Origin: Streptomyces fulvoviolaceus
GTDB lineage: Bacteria > Actinomycetota > Actinomycetes > Streptomycetales > Streptomycetaceae
Reading direction: 5' to 3'
Assembly (NCBI RefSeq): GCF_000718165.1
Contig: NZ_JOEY01000019.1
Location: 99,842-163,841 of the forward strand
Length of the DNA stretch: 64,000 nucleotides
Part shown: piece by piece, positions 44,586 through 63,805 of the stretch
How positions within the stretch are numbered: position 1 is the stretch's first letter
How the letters are laid out: every line of letters begins with the position of its first letter
The notes under the pieces: model-generated
Told to the model about the DNA's origin: nothing
The model's input: only the letters and a program-made list of their open reading frames with translations
Databases searched by the model: none
Position numbers and translations under genes: made by a program

Positions 44586-45590
44586 TTGTCCATGGAAGCC
44601 GTGGAAGCCGTGGGAGAGGACCGGGTCGCCGAGTTCAGCCTCTATACGACGCGCTCCCTGGAGGAGTCCCGCGCCGCGATCGCGGCCCACTACTACGACC
44701 TGCGCCTCGAAGTGGCGGGCGCGACCGCGGACTTCTCCACCAACATGACCGTCGTCGACCTCGGCGCGCTGACGGTGGGCGACGTCAGCTTCGGCACGGA
44801 GATCCGGATGGGTTTCGGCGAGCCTGGCTTCTACCACGTGGGTGTTCCCCTGGAGGGTTGCTGCAGCGTCCAACAGGGGCGAGGGGACGCTGTGTTCGGC
44901 ACGACCCGGCGCGCCCTCTTCTTCGATCCGGAGCGGGACATCCGGGTCGACGCCTGGTCCGCCGACTGCCACGTCCTCACCGTGAAGATCGACAAGGCGG
45001 CCGTGCACCATCAGCTGGAGCTGCTGCTGGGCAGACCGGTGCCGCGGTCGCCGTCCTTCGAACCGTGCTTCGACGTCACCCGGGGGCCCGGCCGCAGCTG
45101 GGCTCGGCTGGCTCACTGGAGTCTGCTGGAGCGGGACGTCTCGCACGGGCTGCTGCGCAGCCCGCTGATCCGCGGCCGCCTCGAACAGACCCTGCTCGAA
45201 GGCGTGTTGCTGGCGGCCGACCACTCCTGTCGCGAGGAGCTGGCAGCCCCTCCGCCACCGATGCGCCCGGCCTCCGTCAAACGGGTCATGGACGTCGTGC
45301 AGGAACGTCCCGCCGAGCCGTACGACGCCGCCCGCCTCGCCGAGATCGCCCAGGTCAGTGTGCGTACCCTGCAGGAAGCGTTCCGCAGGCACGTCGGTAT
45401 GTCGCCGATGGCGTACGTCAACGAGGTGCGCCTGCAGCGGGTCCGCGGCCAGTTGCGGGCCTCGGCACCGGGGACGACGACCGTCTCGGACGTGGCCTAC
45501 CAGTGGGGGTTCGCCCATCTCGGCCGGTTCGCTCGGCGCTATCGGGAGCGGTTCGGGGAGTCGCCCTCGCAGACACTGCGGGCCGCCTGA
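44586..45590 (+). CDS. AraC-family transcriptional regulator
   Basis: A 334-residue regulator with an AraC-binding-like sensory N-terminus (cupin-like; TVVDLGALTVGDVSFGTE) and a C-terminal double helix-turn-helix (DAARLAEIAQVSVRTLQEAF, then TTVSDVAYQWGFAHLGRFAR). The start is taken as TTG at 44586 with GGAGAG about 8 bp upstream; ATG at 44592 is the alternative. It follows the sulfur operon by 87 bp but has no evident tie to it; such proteins often control aromatic-compound genes. Confidence 0.87.
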   Translation: MSMEAVEAVGEDRVAEFSLYTTRSLEESRAAIAAHYYDLRLEVAGATADFSTNMTVVDLGALTVGDVSFGTEIRMGFGEPGFYHVGVPLEGCCSVQQGRGDAVFGTTRRALFFDPERDIRVDAWSADCHVLTVKIDKAAVHHQLELLLGRPVPRSPSFEPCFDVTRGPGRSWARLAHWSLLERDVSHGLLRSPLIRGRLEQTLLEGVLLAADHSCREELAAPPPPMRPASVKRVMDVVQERPAEPYDAARLAEIAQVSVRTLQEAFRRHVGMSPMAYVNEVRLQRVRGQLRASAPGTTTVSDVAYQWGFAHLGRFARRYRERFGESPSQTLRAA

Positions 45591-46342: not shown

Positions 46343-47584
46343 TCACGGAATCAGGGGAATGTGCTCCGAGGGCAGCCCCAGGCGGTCGCAGCCGACCCGG
46401 CGCACGAGAGGCTCCGCCATGCTCGCCCCGACGTGCGTCCAGTACGTGGCCGCGTCCCGGAAGTAGCGCTGCATCCGCTCACCGTCGCGGGCGTACCGGG
46501 AGCCCGCCGTACGGAACAGGATCCCCTGCAGCACGTCCCAGGCCATGCGTCCGGCGTTCAGGAACATCAGGGCCAACCGGTTGTCCTCCACGATCGTGAA
46601 GGGGGATTCCCCGGCCACGTTGCGGCGGCAGGTCTCCATCCAGTCCTCGGCGGTCTGCCGCAGCGCCGCCTCGGCGGTGTGGATCAGGCCCAGCGCCTCG
46701 CCGAGGTGCCGCTGGTAGTCGTGCAGCTCGGCGCGAGTGCGGTCCGGCTCCAGGGCCAGCGGGCGCGCGGCGACGATCCGGGCGTACTCGTCGGCGGCGG
46801 CGTACGCGGTGCCGATCATGATGGCGGCCAGCTCGCCGTGGAAGAAGCTGGGTGCCCGCCCCGCGTACATCGGATTGCCGTGCAGTGCGGAGCCGACGCT
46901 GCCGCCCACTGTCGGCAGGTCGAGCAGGCTCACCTCACGGGTGAAGTACGCCGGGATGCGGGCTTGCTCCATGTGGATGCTGTTGGAGCCGGTGCCGCGC
47001 AGACCGAGCACGCCGTGCCAGTCGTCGAGCACCGTCCACACCGAGCGCGGGGCGACGAACAGCACCGGCGGTCCCGGCGGATCGCCGGGCCGGTCGGGGG
47101 CGCGCAGGGTCTGGCCGACGTAGTGCGTGGAGTAGGGGGCGCCCGAGGAGTACGGCCAGGTGCCGTCCAGGACGACGTGGTCGTCGCCGTCGGGCTGGGC
47201 GACGCCGATCGGCAGGACCGTGGACGCTGCCCGGAAGTCGCCGTCGGTGCCGAAGAACTCGTCCTGCGCCTTCTCCTCGAAGACCCCGGCGGCCTGGAGC
47301 ACATGGGCCGCGGTCAGGGACAGGGCCCAGCCGGTGGAGGGGCAGCCGCGCGCGATCTCCACGACCACGCGGTAGAAGACGGGCAGGCCGAACTCGTAGC
47401 CGCCGTAACGCCGCGGCTGGAGGATCCGGTAGAAGCCGGCGCGCAGGAAGTCGTCGTGGGTGTCCTTGGGGTAGTGCGTGAGCCGTTCGGTCTCCGGCTG
47501 GCGTTCGAGCAGGGCGGGCCTGAGGGCCACGGCCCGTTCGACGATCTCGCGCTCGGTCAGACCGGGTTCGGGTACGGCGATCAC
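46343..47584 (-). CDS. flavin-dependent monooxygenase, HpaB/HsaA/DszC-like
   Basis: A 413-residue protein with the acyl-CoA-dehydrogenase fold used by two-component flavin monooxygenases. AGFYRILQPRRYGGYEFGLP and VEIARGCPSTGWALSLTAAH in the N-terminal helical domain, GTGSNSIHMEQARIP in the beta domain and FRDAATYWTHVGASM near the end are the recognisable parts. A separate reductase would supply reduced flavin; none is adjacent. It starts with GTG, with AGGAGG 4 bp upstream, 106 bp after the cysteine hydrolase, and may belong to the permease operon. Confidence 0.85.
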   Translation of the reverse strand: MIAVPEPGLTEREIVERAVALRPALLERQPETERLTHYPKDTHDDFLRAGFYRILQPRRYGGYEFGLPVFYRVVVEIARGCPSTGWALSLTAAHVLQAAGVFEEKAQDEFFGTDGDFRAASTVLPIGVAQPDGDDHVVLDGTWPYSSGAPYSTHYVGQTLRAPDRPGDPPGPPVLFVAPRSVWTVLDDWHGVLGLRGTGSNSIHMEQARIPAYFTREVSLLDLPTVGGSVGSALHGNPMYAGRAPSFFHGELAAIMIGTAYAAADEYARIVAARPLALEPDRTRAELHDYQRHLGEALGLIHTAEAALRQTAEDWMETCRRNVAGESPFTIVEDNRLALMFLNAGRMAWDVLQGILFRTAGSRYARDGERMQRYFRDAATYWTHVGASMAEPLVRRVGCDRLGLPSEHIPLIP

Positions 47585-47690
47585 GATGCCTCCTGACGTG
47601 TGGGGCCGTCCGTTCGTGATGCGATACGAGTGATTGAACACGGCAAGCGCTTCCGGGTACCGACCGGATAAGGCCAATACCGCCTCGGAT

Positions 47691-48227
47691 TCAGAGCAGT
47701 TCGGCCACCGTGACCACCCGGATCAGTGGCTGGTACAGATCCATCACGTGCAGCGCCCTGGCATGCGAGTCGTCGTCCGCCCCCGCACACGCGTCGGCCG
47801 CCACGAGAACCTCGACCCCCGCGTCGGCAGCGGCCAGGGCGGTGGACAGCACACAGCAGTCGGTGCTCACACCGGCCAGGACCAGACGGCCCTCCAGGCC
47901 GACGCGGGCGGCGAGTTCCGGGGTCCACTTGCCGAAGGTGGTGGCGTCCAGCACATGCGGGGCACGGCCCGCAAACTCCTCGGTCAGATCCCACAGTTGG
48001 GCGTCCGGCGGCTGGAGCGCGAAAGGCCACTGCTCGTAGTAGGCCCGCCAGGCTCCGACGGGCTTGTCGGGCGCCAGGAAGCGGGTGAACGTCACCCTGT
48101 CGCCGAACGCCGGCAGCAGTTGTCGTACACCTGCCGCCGCCTCGGCGAAACGAGGGGCGGCCCATGGGCTGTCGGGCTCGGCGAAGACGCGCTGCATGTC
48201 GATGACGGCGAGCAACCCGGTGGTCAT
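47691..48227 (-). CDS. isochorismatase-family cysteine hydrolase
   Basis: A 178-residue hydrolase of the isochorismatase/nicotinamidase fold with all three catalytic residues: Asp10 in AVIDMQRVFA, Lys in TTFGKWTPEL (about residue 100) and Cys in AGVSTDCCVLSTALAA (about residue 124). Relatives hydrolyse amides (nicotinamide, ureidoacrylate, N-carbamoyl compounds). The ATGA overlap with the permease gene shows it acts on the imported compound or a derivative. Confidence 0.9.
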   Translation of the reverse strand: MTTGLLAVIDMQRVFAEPDSPWAAPRFAEAAAGVRQLLPAFGDRVTFTRFLAPDKPVGAWRAYYEQWPFALQPPDAQLWDLTEEFAGRAPHVLDATTFGKWTPELAARVGLEGRLVLAGVSTDCCVLSTALAAADAGVEVLVAADACAGADDDSHARALHVMDLYQPLIRVVTVAELL

Positions 48228-49756
48228 ACGATCGCTCCCTCGTCCACCGTGGGGCTCGGCGCCTGGGCCTCCTGCTCGCGGACGCGCCCGCGCCGCAGGG
48301 CGAGGGTGCCGAGGAAGCCGAGCGCGAGGGCGGCCAGGACGCCGAGGTTGGCGTACGCCCAGGCGCCGGTCTTGCCGCCGAGGCCGAACGGGCCGAGCAG
48401 ATAGCCCTGCCACTCCAGCCAGCTCGCGGCCGAGTTGGTGACCATGCCCCAGCCGAGGGCGGTGGCGGCGAGGGTGAGCAGCAGCGGGGTGGGCGGTACG
48501 TCGCCGTAGCGGCCGCGTGGGCGGTAGAGGTCGGCCTCGTCGTAGTCGCGGCGGCGCAGGGCCAGGTCGGCGAGCATGATGCCGCACCAGGCGGCGATGG
48601 GGACGCCGAGGGTGGTCAGGAAGCCCATGAACTGGCCGAGGAAGTCGTCGGCGACGAACACGATGTAGATCGAGCCCGCGATCATCAGGACGCCGTCGAC
48701 GAGTGCGGCCAGGTAGCGGGGAATGCGCAGGCCGGCGGAGAGCAGGGCGAGTCCGGAGGAGTAGATGTCGAGGACGGCTCCGCCGACCAGGCCGAGGACC
48801 GCGACCACGGCGAACGGGACCAGGAACCAGGTGGGCAGGATCGTGGTGAGCGCGCCGATCGGGTCGGCGGCGACGGCCGCGTTGAGCTTGCTGGACGAGC
48901 CGGCCAGCAGCAGTCCGAAGACCAGCAGGAGCAGGGGTGCCACGGAGGCGCCGAAGGCGGTCCAGCCGACCACGCCCCGGCCGGACGAGGTGCGCGGCAG
49001 ATAGCGGGAGTAGTCGGCGGCGGCGTTGACCCAGCCGAGGCCGAAGCCGGTCATCATGAAGACCAGCGCGCCGATGAACTCCTGGGCGGAGCCCGCCGGG
49101 AGGGCGCTGACGGTGCTCCAGTGGATGTGGTCGGCGACGAGCGCGATGTAGACCACGGTGAGCACGCCCGTCACCACGGTGATCACGGTCTGCAGGCGCA
49201 TGATCAGGTCGAAGCCCATCACGCCGCCGACGACGGTGAGCCCGGCGACCACGATCAGGGCGACCACCTGGGTCCCGGTACCGCCGCCCCAGCCGAGCCG
49301 GCCGAACACGGTCGCGGTGGCCATGGTGGCGAGGGCACACAGCACGGTCTCCCAGCCGACGGTGAGGACCCAGGAGACCACCGACGGGAGGCGGTTGCCG
49401 CGCACGCCGTAGGCGGCGCGGCTGAGCACCATCGTCGGCGCCGAGCCGCGCTTGCCGGCGACCGCGACGAAACCGCACAACAGGAACGAGAAGACGATGC
49501 CGATCACTCCGGCGACCAGCGCCTGCCAGAAGGAGATCCCGAACCCGAGCGCGAAGGCCCCGTAACTCAGGCCGAGGATCGAGACGTTGGCCCCGAACCA
49601 CGGCCAGAACAGCGTCCGCGGGGTGCCCTTGCGCTCGGCGTCACCGATCACGTCGAGCCCGTGCGTCTCCAACTGGAGCTGCCGGCCCGCGGATCTGCCG
49701 TCCTGGGAATGCGAAGAGTCCGCTGTCGAAGAGTCCGATGTCGAGGAGTCCACCAT
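48224..49756 (-). CDS. NCS1-family permease (purine/cytosine/thiamine type)
   Basis: A 510-residue 12-helix permease of the NCS1 family. Hallmarks are PRTLFWPWFGANVSILGLSY at helix 1, SRAAYGVRGNRLPSVVSWVL and FGLGWVNAAADYSRYLPR. The extreme N-terminus is Asp/Ser/Thr-rich (MVDSSTSDSSTADSS), encoded by three tandem 15-bp units. NCS1 carriers import nucleobases and related N-heterocycles. With the downstream amidase-type hydrolase and flavin monooxygenase this suggests breakdown of an unnamed heterocycle. Confidence 0.88.
   Translation of the reverse strand: MVDSSTSDSSTADSSHSQDGRSAGRQLQLETHGLDVIGDAERKGTPRTLFWPWFGANVSILGLSYGAFALGFGISFWQALVAGVIGIVFSFLLCGFVAVAGKRGSAPTMVLSRAAYGVRGNRLPSVVSWVLTVGWETVLCALATMATATVFGRLGWGGGTGTQVVALIVVAGLTVVGGVMGFDLIMRLQTVITVVTGVLTVVYIALVADHIHWSTVSALPAGSAQEFIGALVFMMTGFGLGWVNAAADYSRYLPRTSSGRGVVGWTAFGASVAPLLLLVFGLLLAGSSSKLNAAVAADPIGALTTILPTWFLVPFAVVAVLGLVGGAVLDIYSSGLALLSAGLRIPRYLAALVDGVLMIAGSIYIVFVADDFLGQFMGFLTTLGVPIAAWCGIMLADLALRRRDYDEADLYRPRGRYGDVPPTPLLLTLAATALGWGMVTNSAASWLEWQGYLLGPFGLGGKTGAWAYANLGVLAALALGFLGTLALRRGRVREQEAQAPSPTVDEGAIV
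49705..49753. repeat. tandem 15-bp repeats in the permease N-terminus
   Basis: Three units of roughly GTCGAAGAGTCCGCT (second GTCGAAGAGTCCGAT, third GTCGAGGAGTCCACC) follow each other in frame and encode the repeated D-S-S-T/S-x tail. The copies are nearly identical at wobble positions, so they look like recent slippage; unit number may vary between strains. Confidence 0.7.
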
Positions 49757-50260: not shown

Positions 50261-50341
50261 GCCCTCGCCAACGGCCGCTTTCAGCGGGTGGTCACGGCCG
50301 GTGATACCGAATGCGGTGATGCGGATGCCCGGTCCACCTAT

Positions 50342-50376
50342 TACAGAGTCTTGACGGTACGGCGAAGAGTTGTAGA
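50342..50376 (+). promoter_or_regulatory. promoter/operator of the liv-type importer, motif shared with box operon
   Basis: TACAGA (50342-50347), 3 bp, TTGACG (50351-50356), 14 bp, TGTAGA (50371-50376). The outer arms TACA and TGTA are complementary. The identical arrangement TACAGA-N3-TTGACG-N14-TGTAGA occurs at 56614-56648 before boxC. TTGACG is a good -35 box, and TAGATT 16 bp later could be the -10 box. Confidence 0.75.
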
Positions 50377-50420
50377 TTCTGGCGGCATCCTGCACACCCC
50401 GGCCCACCTCAGGAGCTGTC

Positions 50421-51620
50421 ATGGGTGCTGTCTCTGCCTTCTCTCTGAACAGAACGATCGCCGGACTCGCCCTGGGTGCCCTCCTGCTGACGGGTTGTGG
50501 GTCGAGCCTCGACGAGAACGGCGGGAACGGGTCCGGAGACGGCCGGTCCGACGGCACGGTCAAGATCGGGCTGCTGGTACCGCTGTCGGGCGTCTACGCA
50601 CCGATCGGCGAAGACCTGCGCGACGGCTTTCAGCTCTACCTCGACGAGCACGACGGCAAGCTCGGCGGGCGCGACGTCGAACTCGTGACCGCCGACGAGG
50701 GCGAGGGTCCGCAGACCGGCGTGCCCGCCGCTCAGAAACTCGTCACCCAGGACCGGGTCACCGCGGTCGCCGGGGTGGTCAACTCGGCCACCGCACTGGG
50801 TCTGCGCGACTTCTTCGACGAGTCCGAGAAGCCGTTGCTGATCGCCAACGCCGGAGCCGACGACATCACCGGGACCCGCAAGTCCGACTACGTGTGGCGT
50901 ACGAGTTTCAGCAACGGCAAGGTGTCCGCCGCACTGGGCCCGACCGTCGCCGAGGAGGCCGAGGGAAGCGTCTACCTCATCGCCGCCGACTACGCCGCCG
51001 GCAAGGAGATGGTCGCGGGGTTCCGCAAGACCTTCGAGGCCGCCGGCGGCAAGGTCGCGGGTGAGAAGTACACCCCCTTCGGTACGACCCAGGACTTCCA
51101 GCCCTACCTGTCGGCCATCCGCAAGTCCGGCGCAAAGGCCGTGTTCGCCTTCTACGCCGGCGCCGAGGCGGTGAGCTTCGTCAAGCAGTACAAGCAGTTC
51201 GGGCTCGCCGGCCGGACACCGCTGTACGGCACCGGTTTCCTCACCGAGGGCGGGGTGCTCGCCGCACAGGGCACGGCCGCGGTCGGCGTGAAGACCTCCC
51301 TGCACTACTCGACCCAACTGGACAGCGCACGGAACAAGGAGTTCGTGGACGCCTACACCGAGAAGGCCGGGAAGTCACCGACGGTCTACGCCGTGCAGGG
51401 GTACGACACCGCCGGAGTCCTCGACACGGCGCTGGCCGAGGCGAGTGGCGACAGCGGTAAGGCACTGGTCGAGGCACTGAGGGGCATCGGTTCGATCAAC
51501 AGCCCCCGGGGCACCTGGAAGTTCGACGCCGACCACAACGCGGAGCAGACGTACTACCTGCGCGAGGTCCGTGCCGAGGCGGGCACGGCCGTCAACACGG
51601 TGCTCGGCGAGCTGGGCTGA
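50421..51620 (+). CDS. branched-chain-type ABC transporter substrate-binding lipoprotein
   Basis: A 399-residue LivK-family lipoprotein: signal peptide with lipobox LTGC (Cys26), Gly/Ser/Asp linker, then a two-lobe type I binding fold (VKIGLLVPLSGVYAPIGED; VTAVAGVVNSATALGLRDFF; AVYAVQGYDTAGVLDTALAE). Several such importers carry aromatic acids rather than amino acids; the promoter shared with the box operon suggests an aromatic ligand here. It is the first gene of a six-gene operon. Confidence 0.9.
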   Translation: MGAVSAFSLNRTIAGLALGALLLTGCGSSLDENGGNGSGDGRSDGTVKIGLLVPLSGVYAPIGEDLRDGFQLYLDEHDGKLGGRDVELVTADEGEGPQTGVPAAQKLVTQDRVTAVAGVVNSATALGLRDFFDESEKPLLIANAGADDITGTRKSDYVWRTSFSNGKVSAALGPTVAEEAEGSVYLIAADYAAGKEMVAGFRKTFEAAGGKVAGEKYTPFGTTQDFQPYLSAIRKSGAKAVFAFYAGAEAVSFVKQYKQFGLAGRTPLYGTGFLTEGGVLAAQGTAAVGVKTSLHYSTQLDSARNKEFVDAYTEKAGKSPTVYAVQGYDTAGVLDTALAEASGDSGKALVEALRGIGSINSPRGTWKFDADHNAEQTYYLREVRAEAGTAVNTVLGELG

Positions 51621-51630
51621 GCGGGCCGGG

Positions 51631-52503
51631 ATGACTACCTATCTGGTGAGCGTCCTCAACGGGCTGGCGATGGGCTCCCTGTTGTTCGCGATCGCGCTGG
51701 GCCTGTCCCTGGTGTTCGGCATGATGGACGTGCTGAACCTCGCCCATGGCGCGGTCTACCTGGTCGGTGCCTATGTCGCGGTGGCACTGGTCGGAGACGG
51801 TGCGGGGGTGGCGCCCTTCGTCCTGTCCGTGCTGGCCGCCGCCGTGGCCGGGGCCCTGCTCGGCGGCCTGCTGGCCACGTTGACGCGGGCCACGCCCCAC
51901 CACCTCGACCAGGCCCTGCTCACGCTCGGCGTGGCCCTGGTGGTCGCCGAAGTACTGTCGGCGGCCTTCGGCAACGACGTGCACTCCATCGCCGCCCCCG
52001 CGCCGGTCGGCGGCGGCGTCACGGTGCTCGGCGAGACGTACCCGGTCTACCGGTTGCTGGTGATCGGGTTCGGCGCCGTGCTCGCGGTGGCCGTGTACGT
52101 CCTGGTGGAGCGCAGCCCGCTGGGCTCGCTCATCCGCGCCACCGTCGCCGACCGCGCCATGGTCGCCGCGCTCGGCGTCAACACCGGCCGGGTGCTGGTC
52201 GGGGTCTTCGCGGCGGGGGCGGCGCTGGCCGCGGTCGGCGGCGTCCTGGCCGGCCCGATCCTGGGCGCCCAGCCCGGCCTGGACGAGAAGGTGCTGCTGC
52301 TCGCGCTGGTCGTGGTGGTGATCGGCGGCCTGGGCTCGGTCCGTGGCGCGCTGCTCGGCGCCGTACTGATCGGACAGGTGCAGGCGCTCGGGACCGCACT
52401 GCTGCCGGAGTACGCGCCGTTCCTCGTCTTCGCGGCGATGGCCCTGGTCCTCCTGCTGCGGCCGGCGGGTCTGCTCCCCGCGCGGTCGGCGGTGCACGCG
52501 TGA
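51631..52503 (+). CDS. branched-chain-type ABC permease, LivH-like
   Basis: A 290-residue permease with about eight hydrophobic helices. The LivH hallmarks are GLSLVFGMMDVLNLAHGAVY near the N-terminus and RATVADRAMVAALGVNTGRV (EAA-like loop, about residues 168-187), and GGLGSVRGALLGAVLIG near the end. It forms the membrane channel with the next gene, which overlaps its stop (GTGA). Confidence 0.92.
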   Translation: MTTYLVSVLNGLAMGSLLFAIALGLSLVFGMMDVLNLAHGAVYLVGAYVAVALVGDGAGVAPFVLSVLAAAVAGALLGGLLATLTRATPHHLDQALLTLGVALVVAEVLSAAFGNDVHSIAAPAPVGGGVTVLGETYPVYRLLVIGFGAVLAVAVYVLVERSPLGSLIRATVADRAMVAALGVNTGRVLVGVFAAGAALAAVGGVLAGPILGAQPGLDEKVLLLALVVVVIGGLGSVRGALLGAVLIGQVQALGTALLPEYAPFLVFAAMALVLLLRPAGLLPARSAVHA

Positions 52504-53543
52504 AGGCGGCCAAGGCGATGCTCGACGGCACAACACCCGCCGTGGAACCCCTGCGGACCGGCACCGCCGACGGCGCCGACCGGCCGGGGCGCCGACGGGC
52601 CGTGGTCACCGTCGCGGTCGTCGCGCTGCTGGCGGCGACCCCGCTGTTCCTCGGCCCGTATCCGGTGACGGCGATGACCCGGATGCTCGCGTTCGCGGTG
52701 CTCGTGCTCGGCGTCGACCTGCTGACCGGTGTCACCGGGCTGCCTTCGCTGGGGCAGGCGGCGTACTTCGGTGTCGGCGCCTACACGGCGGTGCTGATCG
52801 GGATCCACCTCACGCCGGACGCGATGGTGCAGGCGCTGGGGGGCCTCGTCATGGGCCTGGTGGCGGCCGCGGTCACCGGATGGGTCGCCGTACGCGCCCG
52901 CGGCATCGTGTTCCTCATGCTCACCCTGGCGATCGGCGAGTCGGTGCACCAGCTGGCCGGCACCTGGTCGACCGTGGGCGGCAGCAACGGGCTTGCCGGG
53001 ATGCCCCCGATCAGCCTGTTCGGGGGTCCACCGCTGACGGCCGCGGGGTTCGTGTACTGGTGGGTGCTCGCCGTGGCGGTCCTGGTGTTCGCGGGGGTGG
53101 CGCTGGTCGTCCGTTCCCCGTACGGCAGGACGCTGCGCGGAATCCGCGACAACGAGGCCCGGATGCGGGCGCTCGGCTACCGCCCGGCACTCGCGAGGTA
53201 CGGCGTCTTCTGTCTGGCCGGTGCCGTCGCGGGAGCGGGCGGTGCCCTGTGGGCGCAGCAGGCCCGGTTCGTCTCGCCCGGTGACATGGGGTTCGAGGTC
53301 GCGGCACTGGCACTGCTCAGCGTGGTCGTCGGAGGTCCGGGCAGCCTGTGGGGGCCCTGTCTGGGCGCGGCGCTCGTCCTGCTCGTCCGCGACAACCTCT
53401 CCCCCTCGATCGGCGGCCACGGCCCACTGGTGCTGGGCACGGTGTTCATCGCCGTGGTCCTGCTGGCGCCGCGCGGCCTGGCCGGCCTCACGGGTGCCCG
53501 CATCCTCGCCGCCGCGCGCCGCCGTAAGGAGAACCCCTCATGA
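52500..53543 (+). CDS. branched-chain-type ABC permease, LivM-like
   Basis: A 347-residue permease with an extra ~35-residue cytosolic N-terminus. LivM features are GVTGLPSLGQAAYFGVGAYT, RARGIVFLMLTLAIGESVHQ and RTLRGIRDNEARMRALGYRP (coupling loop). It starts with GTG overlapping livH and overlaps livG by 4 bp. Confidence 0.92.
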   Translation: MKAAKAMLDGTTPAVEPLRTGTADGADRPGRRRAVVTVAVVALLAATPLFLGPYPVTAMTRMLAFAVLVLGVDLLTGVTGLPSLGQAAYFGVGAYTAVLIGIHLTPDAMVQALGGLVMGLVAAAVTGWVAVRARGIVFLMLTLAIGESVHQLAGTWSTVGGSNGLAGMPPISLFGGPPLTAAGFVYWWVLAVAVLVFAGVALVVRSPYGRTLRGIRDNEARMRALGYRPALARYGVFCLAGAVAGAGGALWAQQARFVSPGDMGFEVAALALLSVVVGGPGSLWGPCLGAALVLLVRDNLSPSIGGHGPLVLGTVFIAVVLLAPRGLAGLTGARILAAARRRKENPS

Positions 53544-54318
53544 CTCCCCTTCTGGAACTACGGGGGCTGACCCGCTCCTACGGCTCGCTCACGGCCGTCG
53601 ATCAGGTGGACCTGGCGATCACCCGGGGCGAGCGGCACGCGCTGATCGGGCCCAATGGAGCCGGGAAGTCGACCCTGTTCGCCACCGTGGCCGGAACGCT
53701 CCGCGCTTCGGGCGGGAGCATCCTGCTGAACGGGCAGGACGTCACCGCACTGCCGGAGGCGGAGCGGGCCCGGCGCGGCATGGTTCGCACCTACCAGCAC
53801 TCCAGCCTGTTCCTCGACTGCTCCGTACTGGACAACGTCGCGCTCGCCGTCCAGCGCGTCCATCGGGTGGCCCATCGCTGCGACCGCGCGGCACGGCGCT
53901 TTCGGCGCACCGAGGCCGAGGCGCGCCGCCATCTGGACTCGGTCGGGCTGTCCGGACGTACCCGGGACAAGGCGGCCGCGCTGTCCCACGGCGAGCGGCG
54001 GCAGCTCGAGGTCGCGATGGTGCTCGCCGCCGAACCCGCCCTGGTGATGTTCGACGAGCCCACCGCGGGGATGTCCGCCGCCGAGACCGAGCGGTTCGTG
54101 GCCCTGCTGGAACGTCTCCCCGAGGAGCTGACCGTCCTCGTCGTCGAGCACGACCTGGATGTGGTGTTCCGCCTCGCCCGCCGGGTCACGGTGCTGCACC
54201 TGGGCCGGGTCCTCGCCTCCGGACCGCCGCAGGAGATCCGGGCCGACGAGGAGGTCCGGCGGGCCTATCTCGGCGCGGCCAGGACCGAGGACCTGTTCAC
54301 CGAGGCCGGAGGACCAGG

Positions 54319-54322
<4 letters not shown>
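53540..54322 (+). CDS. branched-chain-type ABC ATPase, LivG-like
   Basis: A 260-residue ATPase: Walker A GPNGAGKST (about residues 37-45), the LivG-type Q-loop MVRTYQHSSLF, signature LSHGERRQL, Walker B LVMFDEPTAGMS and switch His in VVEHDLDVV. LSHGE in place of LSGGQ is common in LivG. It energises uptake together with the next gene. Confidence 0.93.
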
Positions 54323-55029
<707 letters not shown>

Positions 55030-55098
55030 CCCGGACGTACGAGCCGTGGTCGGAGATGTGCCCCTGCCCACGGTCCGCCGAGAGAGGGAGCAGAGTCG

Positions 55099-56610
55099 AT
55101 GCAACCGTCCCGTTCGTGGTGTGCCGTCCTGTCCGGCCTCGTCCTCACGATCGGCCTGACCGTCCTGGCCCCGGCAAGTCGTGCCGTCTCGGCGCCCGGT
55201 GATCCGGTCAGATCCTGCGCGAGCCTGACCGAGCTGACCTTCTCCGACGGCACCCGGGTCACCGGCGCCGAGGAGACGGCCGCGATCTGCCACGTACGGC
55301 TGCTCGTACCCGGCAGCATCAACATCGCGGTCTCCCTGCCGAGGCACGACTGGAACGGACGTTTCCAGGGCGTCGGAGGCGGCGGTTACGCGGGCGTCCT
55401 CACGCCACCCGACGACGCCGCGGCAGCGGGTTACGCCGCGGCGGCCACGGACACCGGCCACACCGGATCCCCGCTGTCCGGCGCCTGGGCATGGTCGCCG
55501 ACCGGGATGAAGCAGGACCTGATCACCGACTTCGCCCGGCGTTCGGTCCACGAGATGACCCTCAAGGGCAAGACGGTGACCCGGGCCTACTACGGCCGCC
55601 CGGCCGCCCACTCCTACTGGAACGGCTGCTCCACCGGCGGCAGGCAGGGCCTGATGGAGGCCCAGCGCCACCCGGAGGACTACGACGGCATCCTCTCCGC
55701 GGCACCCGCCATCAACTGGGACCGGTTCATCCCCTCGGAGTTGTGGCCGCAGATCGTGATGCGGGAGAGCGGCCACGTGGTCGCCCCATGCGTCTTCGAG
55801 GCGGTCGAGGAAGCGGTCGTCGCCGCCTGCGACGCCAAGGACGGCGTGCCGGACGGAATCGTGGATCCCCGGACCTGCCGCTTCGATCCCTCGGTGCTGA
55901 TCGGCAAGGAGACACCCTGCGGCACCATCACCGCCGAGGACGCGGCCGTCGTCGAGAAGATCTGGCAGGGACCGCGTCGACAGGACGGCTCCTTCCTCTG
56001 GTACGGCCTGGAGCCGGGCGCCCCGTTCACCGGACTCGCCGGCAGCACCTCCGCGCTGGAACCCGAACCCTTCCCGATCACGGCCGACTGGTTCCGCTGG
56101 TGGCTGGCCAAGGACCCGGACTTCGACTGGCGTACCGTCACCACGGCCGACTTCGCCGACTATTTCGACCGGTCCCGGGCCGAGTACCACGACGTTCTCG
56201 GCACCGACGACCCCGACCTCGGCGCCTTCCGGAACGGTGGCGGCAAGCTGATCCTCTGGCACGGGTGGGCCGACGAGCTGATCTTCCCGCAGGGCACCAT
56301 CGACTACTACCAGCGTCTGACCTCCGCGATGGGCGGGCCGCACCGCACCGAGCAGTTCGCCCGGCTGTTCATGGCGCCCGGCGTCGAGCACTGCAACGGC
56401 GGCCCCGGCGCCGCTCCCGTCGATCCGCTCGCCGCGCTGGTGAAGTGGGTCGAGGACGGCAAGGCCCCGAAGACCCTGGCCGGCCGGAACGGGGACCTCA
56501 CCCGGCCGCTGTGCCTCTGGCCCACCGTCCCCCGCTACACCGGTCACGGAAGTACGGACGACGCAACGAACTTCCGCTGCGCCGCGACCTATGGCCCACA
56601 GCGCCAATAG
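55099..56610 (+). CDS. secreted tannase/feruloyl esterase family protein
   Basis: A 503-residue exported hydrolase with a signal peptide (LVLTIGLTVLAPASRAVSA). The nucleophile Ser is in WNGCSTGGRQGLME (about residue 178), the acid Asp in LWHGWADELIFPQ (about residue 392) and the His in MAPGVEHCNGG (about residue 436); the adjacent Cys residues (GCS and HCN) fit the paired Cys of fungal tannase-like enzymes. It would release aromatic acids from plant esters outside the cell, supplying the adjacent importer and box pathway. GGGAG precedes the ATG. Confidence 0.9.
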   Translation: MQPSRSWCAVLSGLVLTIGLTVLAPASRAVSAPGDPVRSCASLTELTFSDGTRVTGAEETAAICHVRLLVPGSINIAVSLPRHDWNGRFQGVGGGGYAGVLTPPDDAAAAGYAAAATDTGHTGSPLSGAWAWSPTGMKQDLITDFARRSVHEMTLKGKTVTRAYYGRPAAHSYWNGCSTGGRQGLMEAQRHPEDYDGILSAAPAINWDRFIPSELWPQIVMRESGHVVAPCVFEAVEEAVVAACDAKDGVPDGIVDPRTCRFDPSVLIGKETPCGTITAEDAAVVEKIWQGPRRQDGSFLWYGLEPGAPFTGLAGSTSALEPEPFPITADWFRWWLAKDPDFDWRTVTTADFADYFDRSRAEYHDVLGTDDPDLGAFRNGGGKLILWHGWADELIFPQGTIDYYQRLTSAMGGPHRTEQFARLFMAPGVEHCNGGPGAAPVDPLAALVKWVEDGKAPKTLAGRNGDLTRPLCLWPTVPRYTGHGSTDDATNFRCAATYGPQRQ

Positions 56611-56613
56611 TTC

Positions 56614-56648
56614 TACAGAACCTTGACGCACAACGGAAACCCTGTAGA
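56614..56648 (+). promoter_or_regulatory. promoter/operator of the box operon, motif shared with liv importer
   Basis: TACAGA (56614-56619), 3 bp, TTGACG (56623-56628), 14 bp, TGTAGA (56643-56648), with the flanks CTACAG and CTGTAG fully complementary. Spacing is the same to the base as at 50342-50376, while the intervening bases mostly differ. It starts 3 bp after the esterase stop and lies 45 bp before boxC. Confidence 0.75.
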
Positions 56649-56693
56649 GGATGCCTGTATCGGTACCCGTGCTAGCGCGAGGAGGCGCTCGTC

Positions 56694-58346
56694 ATGGTGG
56701 TGGTGTCGTTCGACCGGAGCCCGGACGCATACCGGCACTGGAAGCTCAGCACGGACGGACCGGTGGCCTGGCTGGAGCTGGACGTCGACGAGCAGGGCGG
56801 CCTGGTGCCGGGCTACGAGCTGAAGCTCAACTCCTACGACCTGGGCGTGGACATCGAGTTGTACGACGCCCTGCAGCGCCTGCGGTTCGAGCATCCCGAG
56901 GTGCGGTCGGTGGTGGTGACCAGCGCCAAGGACAAGGTCTTCTGCGCCGGGGCCAACATCCGCATGCTGGCGGCCTCCGAGCACCACTGGAAGGTGAACT
57001 TCTGCAAGTTCACCAACGAGACCCGCAACAGCATGGAGGACGCCTCCGAGCACTCGGGGATCACCTTCATCGCCGCGGTCAACGGCTCCTGCGCGGGCGG
57101 CGGTTACGAGCTGGCGCTCGCCTGCGACCGCATCCTGCTGGTCGACGACAACTCCTCTTCGGTGGCCCTGCCCGAAGTCCCTCTGCTCGGCGTCCTGCCG
57201 GGCACCGGCGGGCTGACCCGCGTGGTCGACAAGCGCCGCGTCCGCAAGGACCTGGCCGACCTCTTCGCCACCCGCAGCGACGGCGTGCGGGGCAAGACGG
57301 CGGTGGACTGGCGGCTGGTCGACGAGGTCGTGCCGCGCCGGGAGTTCCGGGCGGTGGTCGAGCAGCGGGCCCTCGAGGCGGCCTCGGGGAGCACACGTCC
57401 GGCGGACGCCCGGGGTGTTCAACTGCCTCCACTGGAGCGGGAGATCAGCGAGGCGGGCATCGCCTACACATACGTACGCGCCGAGTACGACCGTCCGCTG
57501 AGCCTGGTCCGCATCACCGTACGAGGGCCCGACGAGGACGCCCCGTCCTCCCTGCACGCCCAGGGCGCCGACGGCTGGCTGCTGGCCATGACCCGCGAAC
57601 TGGACGACCTGATCCTGCGGCTGAGGACCAACGAGACCGAAATGGGCACCTGGGTGCTGCGCACGGAGGGCGACTCCGCACGCGTACTGGCCCACGAGCA
57701 GGCCCTGTTGAGCCCACAGGGCGACTGGTTCTCCAACGAGATCCTGCACTACTACAAACGCACGCTGAAACGCCTCGACGTCACCAGCCGCAGCCTCATC
57801 GCCCTGATAGAACCGGGAAGTTGCTTCGCGGGACTGCTGCTGGAGCTGGCCCTGGCCTGCGATCTGCAGTACATGCTGGACGGTCCGCCTATCGAGGACC
57901 CCGACAGCGACCTGCGCGCCCACCTCGCCCTCTCCGAGGCGAACTTCGGAGCCTTCCCGATGGGGAACGGCCTGACCCGCCTCCAGTCCCGCTTCTATCA
58001 GCAGGACGACCACCTCGACTGGCTGCGCCGCGAGGCCGGGCAGCCCCTGAGCCCCGCCCAGGCCCGCGAACTCGGCCTCGTCACCGACGCACCCGACGAC
58101 ATCGACTGGGAGGACGAGATCCGCATCGTCCTCGAAGGCCGGGCGGCGTTGAGCCCGGACGCCCTCACCGGCATGGAGGCCAATCACCGGTTCGTCGGCC
58201 CGGAGACCATCGAGACCAAGATCTTCGGCCGGCTCAGCGCCTGGCAGAACTGGATCTTCATACGCCCCAACGCCTCCGGCCCGGAAGGCGCGTTGCGCCG
58301 CTACGGCACCGGACAGAAGGCGGTCCACGACCGGAAGCGAGTGTGA
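56694..58346 (+). CDS. boxC: 2,3-epoxybenzoyl-CoA dihydrolase (BoxC)
   Basis: A 550-residue protein made of two crotonase-like halves. The N-terminal half carries the acyl-CoA oxyanion segments VFCAGANIRMLAASEHHWK and GSCAGGGYELALACDRILL; the second half contains EPGSCFAGLLLELALACDLQ and FGAFPMGNGLTRLQSRFYQQ. BoxC hydrolyses and ring-opens 2,3-epoxybenzoyl-CoA to the C6 semialdehyde plus formate. Length and layout match BoxC. The ATG has GAGGAGG 7 bp upstream, and boxB follows after 4 bp. Confidence 0.92.
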   Translation: MVVVSFDRSPDAYRHWKLSTDGPVAWLELDVDEQGGLVPGYELKLNSYDLGVDIELYDALQRLRFEHPEVRSVVVTSAKDKVFCAGANIRMLAASEHHWKVNFCKFTNETRNSMEDASEHSGITFIAAVNGSCAGGGYELALACDRILLVDDNSSSVALPEVPLLGVLPGTGGLTRVVDKRRVRKDLADLFATRSDGVRGKTAVDWRLVDEVVPRREFRAVVEQRALEAASGSTRPADARGVQLPPLEREISEAGIAYTYVRAEYDRPLSLVRITVRGPDEDAPSSLHAQGADGWLLAMTRELDDLILRLRTNETEMGTWVLRTEGDSARVLAHEQALLSPQGDWFSNEILHYYKRTLKRLDVTSRSLIALIEPGSCFAGLLLELALACDLQYMLDGPPIEDPDSDLRAHLALSEANFGAFPMGNGLTRLQSRFYQQDDHLDWLRREAGQPLSPAQARELGLVTDAPDDIDWEDEIRIVLEGRAALSPDALTGMEANHRFVGPETIETKIFGRLSAWQNWIFIRPNASGPEGALRRYGTGQKAVHDRKRV

Positions 58347-58350
58347 GCCG

Positions 58351-59772
58351 ATGCCCACGAAGATCGACTACGACTCGAGGATCCCCAACAACGTCGACCT
58401 CGCCGACGACCGCCGACTGCAGCGGGCCCTTGAGGGCTGGCAGCCGAAGTTCCTCAACTGGTGGGGCGAGATGGGCCCTTCACTGGAGAACCGGGGCGTC
58501 TACCTGCGCACCGCCGTGTCGGTGGGCCGCGACGGCTGGGCCCACTTCGACCACGTCAACCCGCCCGACTACCGCTGGGGCATCTTCCTGGCCGAGCCCA
58601 CCCCCGACCGGCGTGTCGCCTTCGGTGAGCACAAGGGCGAGCCGGTGTGGCAGCAGATACCCGGCGAGTACCGCGCCGACCTGCAGCGGCTGATCGTCAT
58701 ACAGGGCGACACCGAGCCGGCCTCCGTCGAACAGCAGCGCCTGCTGGGCCTGTCCGCGCCGAGCCTGTACGACCTGCGCAACCTCTTCCAGGTCAACGTG
58801 GAGGAGGGCCGGCATCTGTGGGCGATGGTCTACCTGCTGCACGCCTACTTCGGCCGGGAGGGCCGCGAGGAGGCCGAGGCGCTGCTCTACCGCAACTCCG
58901 GCAGCCCCGACTCGCCGCGCATCCTGGGCGCGTTCAACGAGGAGACCGCCGACTGGCTGGCCTTCTACATGTTCACGTACTTCACCGACCGGGACGGCAA
59001 GTACCAGCTCGGTTCACTCAAGGAGAGCGCCTTCGACCCGCTGTCGCGCACCTGCACCTTCATGCTGAAGGAGGAGGCGCACCACATGATGGTGGGCACG
59101 ACGGGTGTCGACCGGGTGGTGACCCGGAGCGCCCAACTCATCGGCGAGCACGACACGTTGGACATCGCGGCCTGCGGCGGCATCCCGCTGGACATCATCC
59201 AGAAGTACATCAACTTCCACTACACGGTCTCCCTCGACCTCTTCGGCGGCGAGACCTCCACCAACGCGGCCAACTACTACACCGCCGGGCTCAAGGGCCG
59301 CTGGCAGGAGGAGCGCCGGGGGGACGACCACCGGCTCACCGAGGACGGCGTCCGGTTGGACAAGCCGGGCGAGGACGGCGCCTGGGCGGTCGACGAGGTC
59401 CCCGCACTGCTCGCCCTCAACCTGGACCTGCGCGACGAGTACATCGCCGACTGCCAGACCGGCGTCAAGCGCTGGAACCGGATCCTGGACGAGCACGGCA
59501 TCGACATCCGGCTGAAGCTCCCGCACCCCGCTTTCAACCGCCACGTCGGCCTGGCCGCCGGTCACCACGTGACCCCTGAGGGCACGATCCTCGACGAGGA
59601 GACCTGGGAGGCGAGCCGCCGACGCTGGCTCCCGACCGCCGAGGACCTGGCCTTCGTACGGTCGTTGATGCAGCCGGTGTACGAGCGAGGGAAGATCGCG
59701 AGCTGGGTGGCACCGCCGGTCAACGGCATCAACGGCAAACCGTTCGACTACGAGTACGTCCGACTGGTGTGA
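58351..59772 (+). CDS. boxB: benzoyl-CoA 2,3-epoxidase, oxygenase subunit (BoxB)
   Basis: A 473-residue diiron protein. Probable iron ligands are the Glu/His pairs in VEEGRHLWAMVYLLHAYFG, FNEETADWLAFYMF and LKEEAHHMMVG. It opens with KIDYDSRIPNNVDLADDRRL, typical of BoxB. It epoxidises benzoyl-CoA using electrons from BoxA, an NADPH-dependent reductase. No boxA gene is visible in the window, so the electron donor must be encoded elsewhere. BoxC, BoxB and the ligase are consecutive, probably on one message. Confidence 0.93.
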   Translation: MPTKIDYDSRIPNNVDLADDRRLQRALEGWQPKFLNWWGEMGPSLENRGVYLRTAVSVGRDGWAHFDHVNPPDYRWGIFLAEPTPDRRVAFGEHKGEPVWQQIPGEYRADLQRLIVIQGDTEPASVEQQRLLGLSAPSLYDLRNLFQVNVEEGRHLWAMVYLLHAYFGREGREEAEALLYRNSGSPDSPRILGAFNEETADWLAFYMFTYFTDRDGKYQLGSLKESAFDPLSRTCTFMLKEEAHHMMVGTTGVDRVVTRSAQLIGEHDTLDIAACGGIPLDIIQKYINFHYTVSLDLFGGETSTNAANYYTAGLKGRWQEERRGDDHRLTEDGVRLDKPGEDGAWAVDEVPALLALNLDLRDEYIADCQTGVKRWNRILDEHGIDIRLKLPHPAFNRHVGLAAGHHVTPEGTILDEETWEASRRRWLPTAEDLAFVRSLMQPVYERGKIASWVAPPVNGINGKPFDYEYVRLV

Positions 59773-59782
59773 GGCGGTCCGG

Positions 59783-61318
59783 ATGCCCGAGGTGTTCAAC
59801 GCGGCGGAGTGGCTGGTCGACCGGCATCCGAGAGAGGGCAACGGCGCCCGTACGGCCGTGGTCACTCCTACTCGGAGCCTGTCCTACGAGGAACTGTCCG
59901 GCGAGGTCCGCCGGGTGGCCGCCGGACTGCGTGCCCTCGGTGTGCGGCCGGAGGAGCGCGTCCTGTTCTGCATGGCGGACGACATCGAGCTGTTCACCGG
60001 CATCCTCGCCGCCTTCCGCATCGGCGCGGTGGCCGTGCCCGCCTCGACCATGCTCACCGGGGCGGAACTGGGCAGCCTGATCGCGGACTGCCGTAGCCGA
60101 GTGGTGCTGGGGTCGGCGGAGTTCGTCTCGGTGGTGCGGACGGCCGTGCAGCAGGCCCCGGAGGTCGAGCACCTCGTGCTGGGCGGCGACTGGCGGCGAC
60201 TGCTGGACGCGGGCACCGACGAGGAGCCGTATCCCACCTGGCCGGACTCCCCCGCCCTGTGGCTGTACACCTCCGGCACCACGGGCACACCCAAGGCGGC
60301 GATGCACCGGCACGCCGACGTCAGGTTCGTGGCGGAGACCTACGGCCGGCAGGTGCTCGGCATCGGTCCCGAGGACCGCTGCCTGTCCGTCGCCAAGCTC
60401 TTCTTCGCCTACGGCCTCGGCAACTCGATGTTCTTCCCGCTGGCGGTGGGCGGGACGGCCGTACTGGAGCCCGCCCGCCCCTCCCCCGCGCTGTTCGCCA
60501 AGCGGGCGGCGACCGACCGGGCCACCGTCCTGTTCGGCGTGCCCGGGTTCCTCGGGGCGCTGCTCGCGAGCCTCGACGTGCCGGACGACGCGTTCGCGAC
60601 CGTACGCCTCGGTGTCTCGGCCGGTGAGGCGCTGCCGGCGCGGATCTACCGGGGGATGCTGGAGCGGTTCGGAGTCGAGGTGCTGGACGGCATCGGGTCG
60701 ACCGAGATGCTGCACATCTTCATGTCCAACCGGCAGGGGCAGGTCCATCCGGGCTCCTCCGGCGCACCTGTTCCGGGGTACACCGTGGAGTTGCGGGACG
60801 TCGAGGGCCGCATCGTGGAGGGCGACGGCGTGCCTGGCGAGCTCTACGTGCGCGGGGAGTCCGCCGCCGTCGGATACTGGTGCCGGGCCGAGACCAGCCG
60901 TCAGGTCTTCCTGGGCGACTGGGTGCGCACCGGAGACACCTACGTCCGCAACGGCGACGGCACCTACACCTGCATGGGCCGCACCAACGACCTGCTCAAG
61001 GCGGGCGGCATCTGGGTCTCGCCCGCCGAGGTCGAGGAGCGGCTGCTGGCCCATCCGGACGTGGCCGAGGTCGCCGTGGTGGGTGCGCGGGACGCGGACG
61101 GCCTGGACAAGCCGGTCGCCTGCGTGGTGCCGAGCCCCGGCCACGAGGTCGACCCGGACGCCCTGGTCGCCTGGTGCCGCGAAGGCCTGGCCGCCTTCAA
61201 GCGCCCGCGCGCGGTCATCGGGCTGCCCGAGCTGCCCCGTACGGCCACCGGCAAGATCCGCCGCAATGTGCTGCGCGCGATGGTCCGCGACGGTTCCTGG
61301 GCGGAGGAGGCGCGGTGA
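59783..61318 (+). CDS. benzoate-CoA ligase
   Basis: A 511-residue adenylate-forming ligase of the benzoate-CoA ligase family. Core motifs are LWLYTSGTTGTPKAAMHRH (about residues 160-178), AKLFFAYGLGNSMFFPL, DGIGSTEMLHIFMSN, GDWVRTGDTYVRN and the C-terminal catalytic Lys in RTATGKIRRNVL. It activates benzoate (or a hydroxy- or aminobenzoate) to the CoA ester, the entry step of the box pathway. The stop overlaps the amidohydrolase start. Confidence 0.91.
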   Translation: MPEVFNAAEWLVDRHPREGNGARTAVVTPTRSLSYEELSGEVRRVAAGLRALGVRPEERVLFCMADDIELFTGILAAFRIGAVAVPASTMLTGAELGSLIADCRSRVVLGSAEFVSVVRTAVQQAPEVEHLVLGGDWRRLLDAGTDEEPYPTWPDSPALWLYTSGTTGTPKAAMHRHADVRFVAETYGRQVLGIGPEDRCLSVAKLFFAYGLGNSMFFPLAVGGTAVLEPARPSPALFAKRAATDRATVLFGVPGFLGALLASLDVPDDAFATVRLGVSAGEALPARIYRGMLERFGVEVLDGIGSTEMLHIFMSNRQGQVHPGSSGAPVPGYTVELRDVEGRIVEGDGVPGELYVRGESAAVGYWCRAETSRQVFLGDWVRTGDTYVRNGDGTYTCMGRTNDLLKAGGIWVSPAEVEERLLAHPDVAEVAVVGARDADGLDKPVACVVPSPGHEVDPDALVAWCREGLAAFKRPRAVIGLPELPRTATGKIRRNVLRAMVRDGSWAEEAR

Positions 61319-62172
61319 TCGACAGCGAGACCGTGGTCGACGCGCACGTCCACGTCCCGCGGCTGTCCACACTCAAGCCGGACTGGTTCGAGTGGGCGCA
61401 GACCTTCTCCCGGGGCTATCCGTGGCGCGACGCCTACGACTCGCGGGGCGACCCCGTGCCCGAGCGGCTGGACGCCCTGCTGGAGTCGGAGGGCGTGGAC
61501 CGCGCGCTGCTGTTCTGCGAGTACAGTCCGCGCGTCACCGGCATCCAGCCGATCGAGGACCTGCTGCCGATCGTCGCGTACAACCCGGTCCGCTTCCGCC
61601 TGGTGGCGAACATCAATCCGCACCTGCACCACCCGGTGGTGGCGGAGGCCGAACGGCAACTGGACCTGGGCGCGGTCGCCGTCAAACTCCACCCGGTGCA
61701 CGGCGGGTTCGATCCCGCCGACAAGGAGTTGTACCCGCTGTACGCACGGTGTGCCGAGCGCGGTGTGCCGGTGATCGTGCACTCCGGCACGTCCAGCTTC
61801 CCCGGTGCCAGGGCCCGGTTCGGCGATCCGCAGCTGCTGCTCGACGCCGTGGAGGACTTCCCGGACGTGCAGTTCGTCTTCGCGCACGGCGGGCGGGGCT
61901 GGTGGTACGACACCGCGGCCTTCCTCGCCCTGACCCGGCCGAACGTCTGGCTGGACCTCGCAGGACTGCCACCGCGCAAACTGCCCGAGTACTACGCCCG
62001 TTTCGACCTGCCGAGGCTGGCCACCCGGTGGATCTTCGGCACCGACTGGCCGGGCGTCCCGGGTACGTCCCGCAACGTCGCCGCGCTGCGGGAACTGGGG
62101 CTGCCCGAGGAGACGTTGTGTGCGGTGTTGTCGGGCAACGCGGCCAAGGTGTTTCCCGGGTTGGGTGTCTAA
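61315..62172 (+). CDS. amidohydrolase-family protein (amidohydrolase_2, ACMSD-like)
   Basis: A 285-residue TIM-barrel metal-dependent hydrolase. Metal-site motifs are VVDAHVHVPRL (HxH), VAVKLHPVHGG, VPVIVHSGTSS and RWIFGTDWPGVPGT (Asp). Relatives include ACMSD-type decarboxylases and lactone hydrolases. It is coupled to the ligase (GTGA), so it should act on an aromatic acid or a ring-cleavage product, but it is not part of the known box pathway; a decarboxylase or amide/ester hydrolase supplying benzoate is possible. Confidence 0.85.
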   Translation: MIDSETVVDAHVHVPRLSTLKPDWFEWAQTFSRGYPWRDAYDSRGDPVPERLDALLESEGVDRALLFCEYSPRVTGIQPIEDLLPIVAYNPVRFRLVANINPHLHHPVVAEAERQLDLGAVAVKLHPVHGGFDPADKELYPLYARCAERGVPVIVHSGTSSFPGARARFGDPQLLLDAVEDFPDVQFVFAHGGRGWWYDTAAFLALTRPNVWLDLAGLPPRKLPEYYARFDLPRLATRWIFGTDWPGVPGTSRNVAALRELGLPEETLCAVLSGNAAKVFPGLGV

Positions 62173-63008
62173 CCCTCCAGTTGTTCCCAGCGCCGCTGGG
62201 CCGCCGTACTCCACTCGGCGTGCCTGCTGTGGAAGAGGCCGGCCGCCTTGGCGCCGCTCCAGCCCGGGGGCAGCAGCTTGGGCGGCAGCCGTGGGTCGAG
62301 GAACGGGAAGCGGCGCCACTCGTGCACCAGCATGGTCTGAGCCTGCAGGACGGCGTCACCGTCCGGCGGGCGCAGTCCGGTGAACTCGTCGATGAACGCC
62401 TCGTAGCGGTCCTCCACCTCGCTGAGGTCCCACGCGCGGGTCACCATCGCCGCCTCGCTGCCCACGGCGCCGTAGGTGGCGGTGAAGGACATCGCGTCGT
62501 CGGCGAGCCCGAGTTCCTTCAGGACGCCGAGGGCCTCCGCCTCGCGATCGGCGTGGGGCGTGATCCAGACGCCGGGCTCCGGGGAGCCGAAGCCGGCCCA
62601 GGTGAGGCGCGTGCGGACGCGGTGGCGCAGATCCCTCTTGGACTCGGGCACCGAGACCAGGACCACCAACCACGTTCCGTCCCAGGCGCGTTCGCCACTG
62701 CCGAAGTCGTATATGCGCTGCGCGCCCTCGGTCAGCAGCCGCCGCCCCGGCGGCGTGAGCACCCAGCGCACCCGGCGGCCCACCCGCTCCGAGGCCAGCC
62801 ACCCTTCCGCGGCGGTCCGGGCCAGCGCCTGCCGGGCCGACTTCTCCTCGACACCGAACATCGCCAACGCGTCCACCAGCGCCGAGGTCCACACCGGGGT
62901 GCCCTGGGGCAGTACGTACTCACCGAGCATCGTCGTCAGCAGCGACCGCGCGCTGACGTCACCGAGCTCCCGGCGCCTGCTGACCACCGGCCGCACACTC
63001 TCCGCCAT
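62169..63008 (-). CDS. PaaX-family transcriptional regulator
   Basis: A 279-residue regulator of the PaaX family: an N-terminal winged helix (ARSLLTTMLGEYVLPQGTPV; SARQALARTAAEGWLASERV), a central domain (AWDGTWLVVLVSVPESKRDL; VWITPHADREAEALGVLKEL) and a helical C-terminus (MLVHEWRRFPFLDPRLPP). PaaX proteins respond to aryl-CoA esters, usually phenylacetyl-CoA. Its position convergent to the box operon (4-bp overlap) makes benzoyl-CoA a natural effector here. ATG at 63008 is preferred; a TTG 39 bp upstream is possible. Confidence 0.88.
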   Translation of the reverse strand: MAESVRPVVSRRRELGDVSARSLLTTMLGEYVLPQGTPVWTSALVDALAMFGVEEKSARQALARTAAEGWLASERVGRRVRWVLTPPGRRLLTEGAQRIYDFGSGERAWDGTWLVVLVSVPESKRDLRHRVRTRLTWAGFGSPEPGVWITPHADREAEALGVLKELGLADDAMSFTATYGAVGSEAAMVTRAWDLSEVEDRYEAFIDEFTGLRPPDGDAVLQAQTMLVHEWRRFPFLDPRLPPKLLPPGWSGAKAAGLFHSRHAEWSTAAQRRWEQLEG

Positions 63009-63116
63009 GGCCTTCACTTCCCTCGCCGACCACTTCTCATTGAACAATATCTTTTGGGAACGGAAAGCATAAGTAGAGTGTTTGGCCCGGCCTATGGGGC
63101 CCGGGCCGCGGCGGCG

Positions 63117-63719: not shown

Positions 63720-63777
63720 CTCTGCCTCCCGTCCGTCGTACCCATGCAGCGTGGCATCAGGCCGGCGGGCGACGCAC

Positions 63778-63805
63778 CCCATGGTGGAGCGGGCTGCACC
63801 ATGGG
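63778..63805. promoter_or_regulatory. perfect 9-bp-arm palindrome in a divergent promoter
   Basis: CCCATGGTG (63778-63786) and CACCATGGG (63797-63805) are exact complements 10 bp apart, between the divergent HAD gene and the last gene of the window. Arms and spacing suit a dimeric repressor site spanning two helical turns; a stem-loop in the HAD leader is another option. Confidence 0.55.

Follow-up and report, generated by a model that had tools for sequence, protein, structure and literature searches.

In Escherichia coli, the repressor PaaX competes with RNA polymerase at two promoters of the phenylacetate (paa) genes, Px and Pz; its operator is given as TGATTC-N27-GAATCA and its inducer as phenylacetyl-CoA (PMC9493321). 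In Betaproteobacteria, the box pathway (benzoyl-CoA epoxidation) and bzd are repressed by BoxR and BzdR, respectively, which are XRE plus shikimate-kinase-like proteins (PMC6449761). The box genes considered here are located in a stretch of 64,000 nucleotides from Streptomyces fulvoviolaceus (assembly GCF_000718165.1, contig NZ_JOEY01000019.1, forward strand, positions 99,842 to 163,841), referred to below as the window. An earlier note on this DNA had pointed out that one rigid motif, TACAGA-N3-TTGACG-N14-TGTAGA, precedes both a liv-type importer operon and boxC. Sequence comparison makes it likely that both motifs serve as operators in a single small regulon under a dedicated PaaX-family repressor, here called box-PaaX.

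The proposed system resembles E. coli PaaX in several respects: the regulator belongs to the same family, the predicted target pathway is again an aerobic aryl-CoA epoxidation, and two inverted half-sites lie about three helical turns apart (PMC9493321). Unlike the E. coli operator, the box sites have half-sites with a CTACA core (TTCTACA/TGTAGAA) and a gap of 24–26 bp instead of 27 bp. The predicted targets are box and not paa genes, and box-PaaX scores below the equivalog cut-off for PaaX and stands apart in the tree. Since neither the E. coli half-sites nor the N27 gap is found in the box sites, only the long-gap inverted layout is common to both. The E. coli paa intergenic regions themselves contain one TGATTC-N27-GAATCG near paaA and no perfect copy of the operator. 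BoxR, in contrast, is an XRE-type protein with TGCA repeats as its site; a likeness to the system proposed here is that a putative benzoate ABC transporter belongs to most BoxR regulons (PMC6449761).

Both copies of the motif, at 50342–50376 and 56614–56648, are exact, with spacing identical to the base, and at up to three mismatches they are the sole matches in the window (100 shuffles gave a mean of 0.00). The genome-wide scan that the earlier note had proposed returned the same two sites: at this threshold, the 11.6 Mb host genome (G000) has two forward matches and no reverse ones, and the reversed-pattern control has none. The palindrome is wider than first described. Comparison of loci gives a core of TTCTACA-N25-TGTAGAA, and the boxC copy is alone among the two in having both 6-bp arms (TCTACA/TGTAGA) exact. 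The arms without the intervening letters are non-specific; TCTACA-N25-TGTAGA at up to two mismatches occurs 57 times per strand in G000 compared with 62 for the control and, therefore, no additional targets can be named by that pattern.

The best 80 of 582 boxC loci were fetched (L numbers denote fetched loci; G numbers other than G000 denote other genomes). Approximately 300 bp before boxC were searched in 51 of them (L003–L052 and L067), of which 50 are actinobacterial by title and one, L040, is a 'Chloroflexi' metagenome-assembled genome. Regions were scored by their best TTCTACA/TGTAGAA arm pair out of 14 letters, with gaps of 18–32 bp allowed. A score of at least 12 was reached in 44 of the 51 loci versus 2 of 1020 shuffled regions, and in none of the 29 remaining loci (L053–L066 and L068–L082; best score 11), which have no PaaX orthologue in the fetched flanks. 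When at least 11/14 is required at a gap of 24–26 bp, 47 loci have a site before boxC (27 N25, 16 N24 and 4 N26). The best match of L029, L031, L039 and L047 falls outside these limits, and weaker motif matches place their sites at N25. Within the 51 loci, N24 is confined to Amycolatopsis and N26 to Geodermatophilaceae; one Amycolatopsis locus, L014, has N25. The half-site extends to about ATnTTCTACA, in which CTACA is nearly invariant.

The site was also followed within a single genus. The genome G157 contains L017, an Amycolatopsis sp. by title, and all 30 boxC loci taken from its genus (L182–L211) carry the site, 28 with N24 and two with N25; five of these loci are also in the first set (genomes G155, G157, G159, G160 and G161). 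In 12 of 12 Amycolatopsis genomes there is one site with no more than one mismatch, identical in sequence to the boxC site. The remaining matches in these 12 genomes have two or three mismatches, similar to the control, and give no second target.

The likeness of the two window copies might simply reflect two good promoters, each with TTGAC, a -10 element and a fixed spacing, plus chance. TTGACG and TAGA are indeed promoter-like, and at two to three mismatches the pattern is found in other genomes at about the reversed-control rate, with any match present in 31 of 150 genomes. However, such an origin is scarcely credible when sites without the -35 letters are considered. The fixed position holds TTGAC in 23 of 33 N25 sites (the two in the window counted), in all 16 N24 sites and in none of the four N26 sites. 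Of the 14 sites without TTGAC, those of nine N25 and four N26 loci retain arms scoring 11–14, and the arms of L029 are weak; in L032 and L050 the pentamer is changed by one letter (to TTGCC and TAGAC). The arms and the gap persist in 13 loci without TTGAC and are, therefore, those of an operator rather than letters common to two promoters. That the site is conserved before boxC points in the same direction.

Further copies of the site were encountered in two settings. In Pseudonocardia kunmingensis (L032), bclA precedes boxC, with a motif copy of its own at 7152–7186 (two mismatches). The genome G108 carries the box cluster twice (C1:3039270–3054902 and 3203073–3211267), with two boxC genes, two box-PaaX genes and three sites.

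The neighbouring PaaX-family gene, which the earlier note had favoured as regulator, is the best candidate and very probably encodes the repressor, judging by its recurrence across families and by a distribution that matches boxC. The N-terminal, central and C-terminal PaaX domains of Pfam are all above cut-off in its product, which is related by sequence to the solved PaaX repressor structure 8a39 (E 2.4e-32). Its score against TIGR02277, the PaaX equivalog for the phenylacetate repressor, is 183.5 bits, below the cut-off of 264.55. The protein as called (62169–63047) matches only PaaX domains in Pfam, with no BoxR-type architecture; the open reading frame caller starts it at 63047, and the ATG at 63008 appears the better start.

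PaaX is encoded in 21 of the 51 boxC loci when open reading frames of at least 150 aa are counted, across several families, and tblastn finds an orthologue linked to boxC in 22. For the 29 loci without a linked gene, 24 genomes were searched (L036, L037, L050, L051 and L052 are outside this set, and L048 and L049 were added), and 23 of the 24 contain a close orthologue elsewhere. The best match is 295–572 bits over the 25 genomes that have one, and the best clear paralogue reaches 222. Of 150 genomes from the host genus, three contain boxC; these three, and no others, also have box-PaaX (E ≤ 1e-70) and sites with at most one mismatch. A search of 80 genomes from the genus of G157 gave boxC in 73 and box-PaaX in exactly those 73, so that one set of seven genomes lacks both; for independent genomes, which these are not, the probability of hitting that set by chance would be 1 in 3.2 billion, from 80 choose 7. 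Only eight of the 73 have paaX within 10 kb of boxC by coordinates (G179, G185, G199, G203, G219, G223, G225 and G228), and in the others it is on a separate contig or more than 0.5 Mb away.

A tree of 54 PaaX rows places the 42 box-associated ones in one supported group (98/94); E. coli PaaX and the five G000 paralogues fall outside it. EK-ARQA is conserved in the likely recognition helix of box-linked PaaX, and K69 is present in 40 of the 42 box rows and in none of the 12 other PaaX rows.

A different protein could act on the operator, for example the MarR-like protein encoded beside bclA in Amycolatopsis or the AraC-type protein encoded at 44586–45590 in the window, 5 kb from livK. A MarR-like gene is indeed near the box genes at L034:14679–15140 and in eight more of the 51 loci, and the other recurrent regulators are TetR-like and HxlR-like (five loci each, both named by eye). 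However, these three families are confined to Amycolatopsis loci, the site itself spans families, and PaaX tracks boxC where the two are unlinked. MarR proteins typically bind short compact palindromes, which also counts against a MarR-like regulator. Control by any of these proteins is, on this evidence, improbable.

Several observations weigh against box-PaaX and its operators as proposed here. The importer copy has a poor left arm, with two mismatches in 6 bp, and the livK site of L031 is weak by its arms. Covariation between left and right arms gave a symmetry little above that of shuffled pairings and is not used as evidence. The regulator census took only open reading frames of the size given above and hardly lists families present in fewer than five loci. 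In the metagenome-assembled genome G170 (L035) the site is present, and a whole-genome search gave no PaaX match. Four rows labelled as paralogues nest within the box-PaaX group, and those unlinked Amycolatopsis paaX genes that were tested have only 9/14 matches or none upstream. Co-occurrence in the host genus is partly hitch-hiking, because paaX and boxC are neighbours there. Finally, the seven genomes that lack both genes in the genus of G157 may be related, so that the match does not amount to 80 independent trials.

The earlier view of the motif as a repressor-type site laid over a promoter is favoured by the comparative evidence. With the left arm ending 5 bp ahead of the -35 box and the right arm lying over the -10 region, the pair encloses the core promoter. 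The right arm allows two -10 registers, TAGATT/TAGAGG at a spacing of 16 and GANNNT at a spacing of 18, and the sequence fits either. From centre to centre, the half-sites are 31 bp apart in N25 sites, 30 bp in N24 sites and 32 bp in N26 sites. Box-PaaX, probably as a dimer, would bind the two CTACA half-sites, one shortly before the -35 box and one over the -10 element, and would block RNA polymerase at the core promoters of the importer operon and of boxC-boxB-bclA. If E. coli PaaX, with phenylacetyl-CoA as inducer, is a guide, the protein may be released by an aryl-CoA that the pathway makes, benzoyl-CoA being the likeliest.

The sequence is compatible with either sign of regulation, and the same protein might act as an activator or a dual regulator. 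However, arms before the -35 box and on the -10 element should exclude polymerase, and E. coli PaaX is described as a repressor that competes with it (PMC9493321); activation is, thus, very unlikely. A reading of the palindrome as an RNA structure was set aside, because the transcript is expected to start downstream of the right arm.

We lean towards the broader proposal that box control in actinobacteria has its own PaaX-type benzoyl-CoA repressor, unrelated to BoxR, a single dimer of which would clamp the core promoter, and that the gap has drifted between 24, 25 and 26 bp while the CTACA core was kept. This gives the actinobacterial box pathway concrete regulator and operator candidates. 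It also suggests recruitment of repressors from two unrelated families, BoxR and PaaX, to this pathway. The short DNA signature allows the regulon to be predicted in Streptomyces, Amycolatopsis, Pseudonocardia and Geodermatophilaceae, and in the series of 24-, 25- and 26-bp gaps nature itself has varied the length of DNA that PaaX proteins have to span. The PaaX family and the long-gap operator layout are already known. No title or abstract describing a PaaX regulator of the box pathway, or the box-PaaX regulon, was found in literature in which subscription journals are thinly covered; in PMC13186573, PaaX is treated together with phenylacetate genes.

The earlier note had joined import, extracellular ester cleavage and the box pathway in one regulon, and the link between importer and box genes is borne out by sites before livK and boxC elsewhere. 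Further sites precede livK in L005, L006 and G108. Two sites lie between paaX and livK in L011, one with both arms perfect, and two lie before livK in L031 (arms 12/14, two mismatches to the full motif). In L048 and L049, an N26 site scoring 11/14 is located between paaX and livK. The importer link, therefore, occurs across several families. The esterase is the weakest link, as it has no site of its own and would belong to the regulon through co-transcription with the liv genes by read-through from livF. It is found between livF and boxC in L006 and G108, and is missing from that place in L005, where the rest of the arrangement is kept.

The region upstream of paaX was said to lack the motif. 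This holds for the strict motif only, since a degraded N25 copy (10/14) is present at 63040–63078, and weak sites (scores 9–11) hold the corresponding position upstream of paaX in four other Streptomyces-type sequences, L004, L005, L007 and L118. Because scores of 9–11 are near background, a site at this place is supported by its conserved position and not by its score. It may be what remains of an operator-promoter that decayed once the boxD side had been lost. At the place where L005 encodes a PaaY-like protein and a BoxD-type dehydrogenase divergently from paaX, the window has a HAD-type hydrolase gene (63117–63992); no match to the BoxD-type protein of L005 was found in G000 at E ≤ 1e-40, an empty result that is weak by itself. 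Five loci (L039, L040, L045, L047 and L067) have paaX and boxC in divergent orientation, with the boxC operator common to both.

Table 1. Genes, candidate operators and putative promoter elements of the box locus (positions in the window).
Feature	Position	Strand	Basis
livK-type substrate-binding protein	50421..51620	+	PF13458
livH-type permease	51571..52503	+	PF02653
livM-type permease	52500..53543	+	PF02653
livG-type ATPase	53540..54322	+	PF00005, PF12399
livF-type ATPase	54319..55029	+	PF00005
Tannase/feruloyl-esterase-family gene, signal-peptide-like N terminus (by eye)	55099..56610	+	PF07519
boxC, 2,3-epoxybenzoyl-CoA dihydrolase	56694..58346	+	TIGR03222, 870.9 bits (cut-off 712.3)
boxB, benzoyl-CoA 2,3-epoxidase subunit	58351..59772	+	TIGR03225, 753 bits (cut-off 499.1)
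bclA, benzoate-CoA ligase family	59783..61318	+	TIGR02262, 526.9 bits (cut-off 375.25)
Amidohydrolase-family gene after bclA	61315..62172	+	PF04909 (61318–62172 scanned; GTG start at 61315 presumed)
box-PaaX, PaaX-family regulator	62169..63008	-	PF07848, PF20803, PF08223
Candidate importer operator, TATTACA-N25-TGTAGAT	50339..50377	+	motif scans, arm comparison
Candidate boxC operator, TTCTACA-N25-TGTAGAG	56611..56649	+	motif scans, arm comparison
Putative degraded operator upstream of paaX, CTCTACT-N25-TGTTCAA	63040..63078	-	arm scoring, sequence
Importer promoter, -35 box TTGACG	50351..50356	+	sequence
Importer promoter, putative -10 TAGATT (spacing 16) or GATTCT (spacing 18)	50373..50378 or 50375..50380	+	either choice tentative
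boxC promoter, -35 box TTGACG	56623..56628	+	sequence
boxC promoter, putative -10 TAGAGG (spacing 16) or GAGGAT (spacing 18)	56645..56650 or 56647..56652	+	either choice tentative

The profiles for BoxC, BoxB and benzoate-CoA ligase are all above cut-off, and the run from boxC to the amidohydrolase gene is convergent with paaX. The amidohydrolase family is present in 18 of the 51 boxC loci. On the other side, a flavin monooxygenase-like (HsaA-related) gene and an NCS1-type transporter gene (46343–49756) adjoin the importer on the opposite strand, and the window scan gave no motif site ahead of them. A second boxC in G185 (C1:8403566–8405217) matches as two pieces in different open frames and looks broken. 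One PaaX paralogue of the host (G000:C22:155749–156501, L116) comes after a gene with 38% identity to bclA and may belong to another aryl-CoA regulon.

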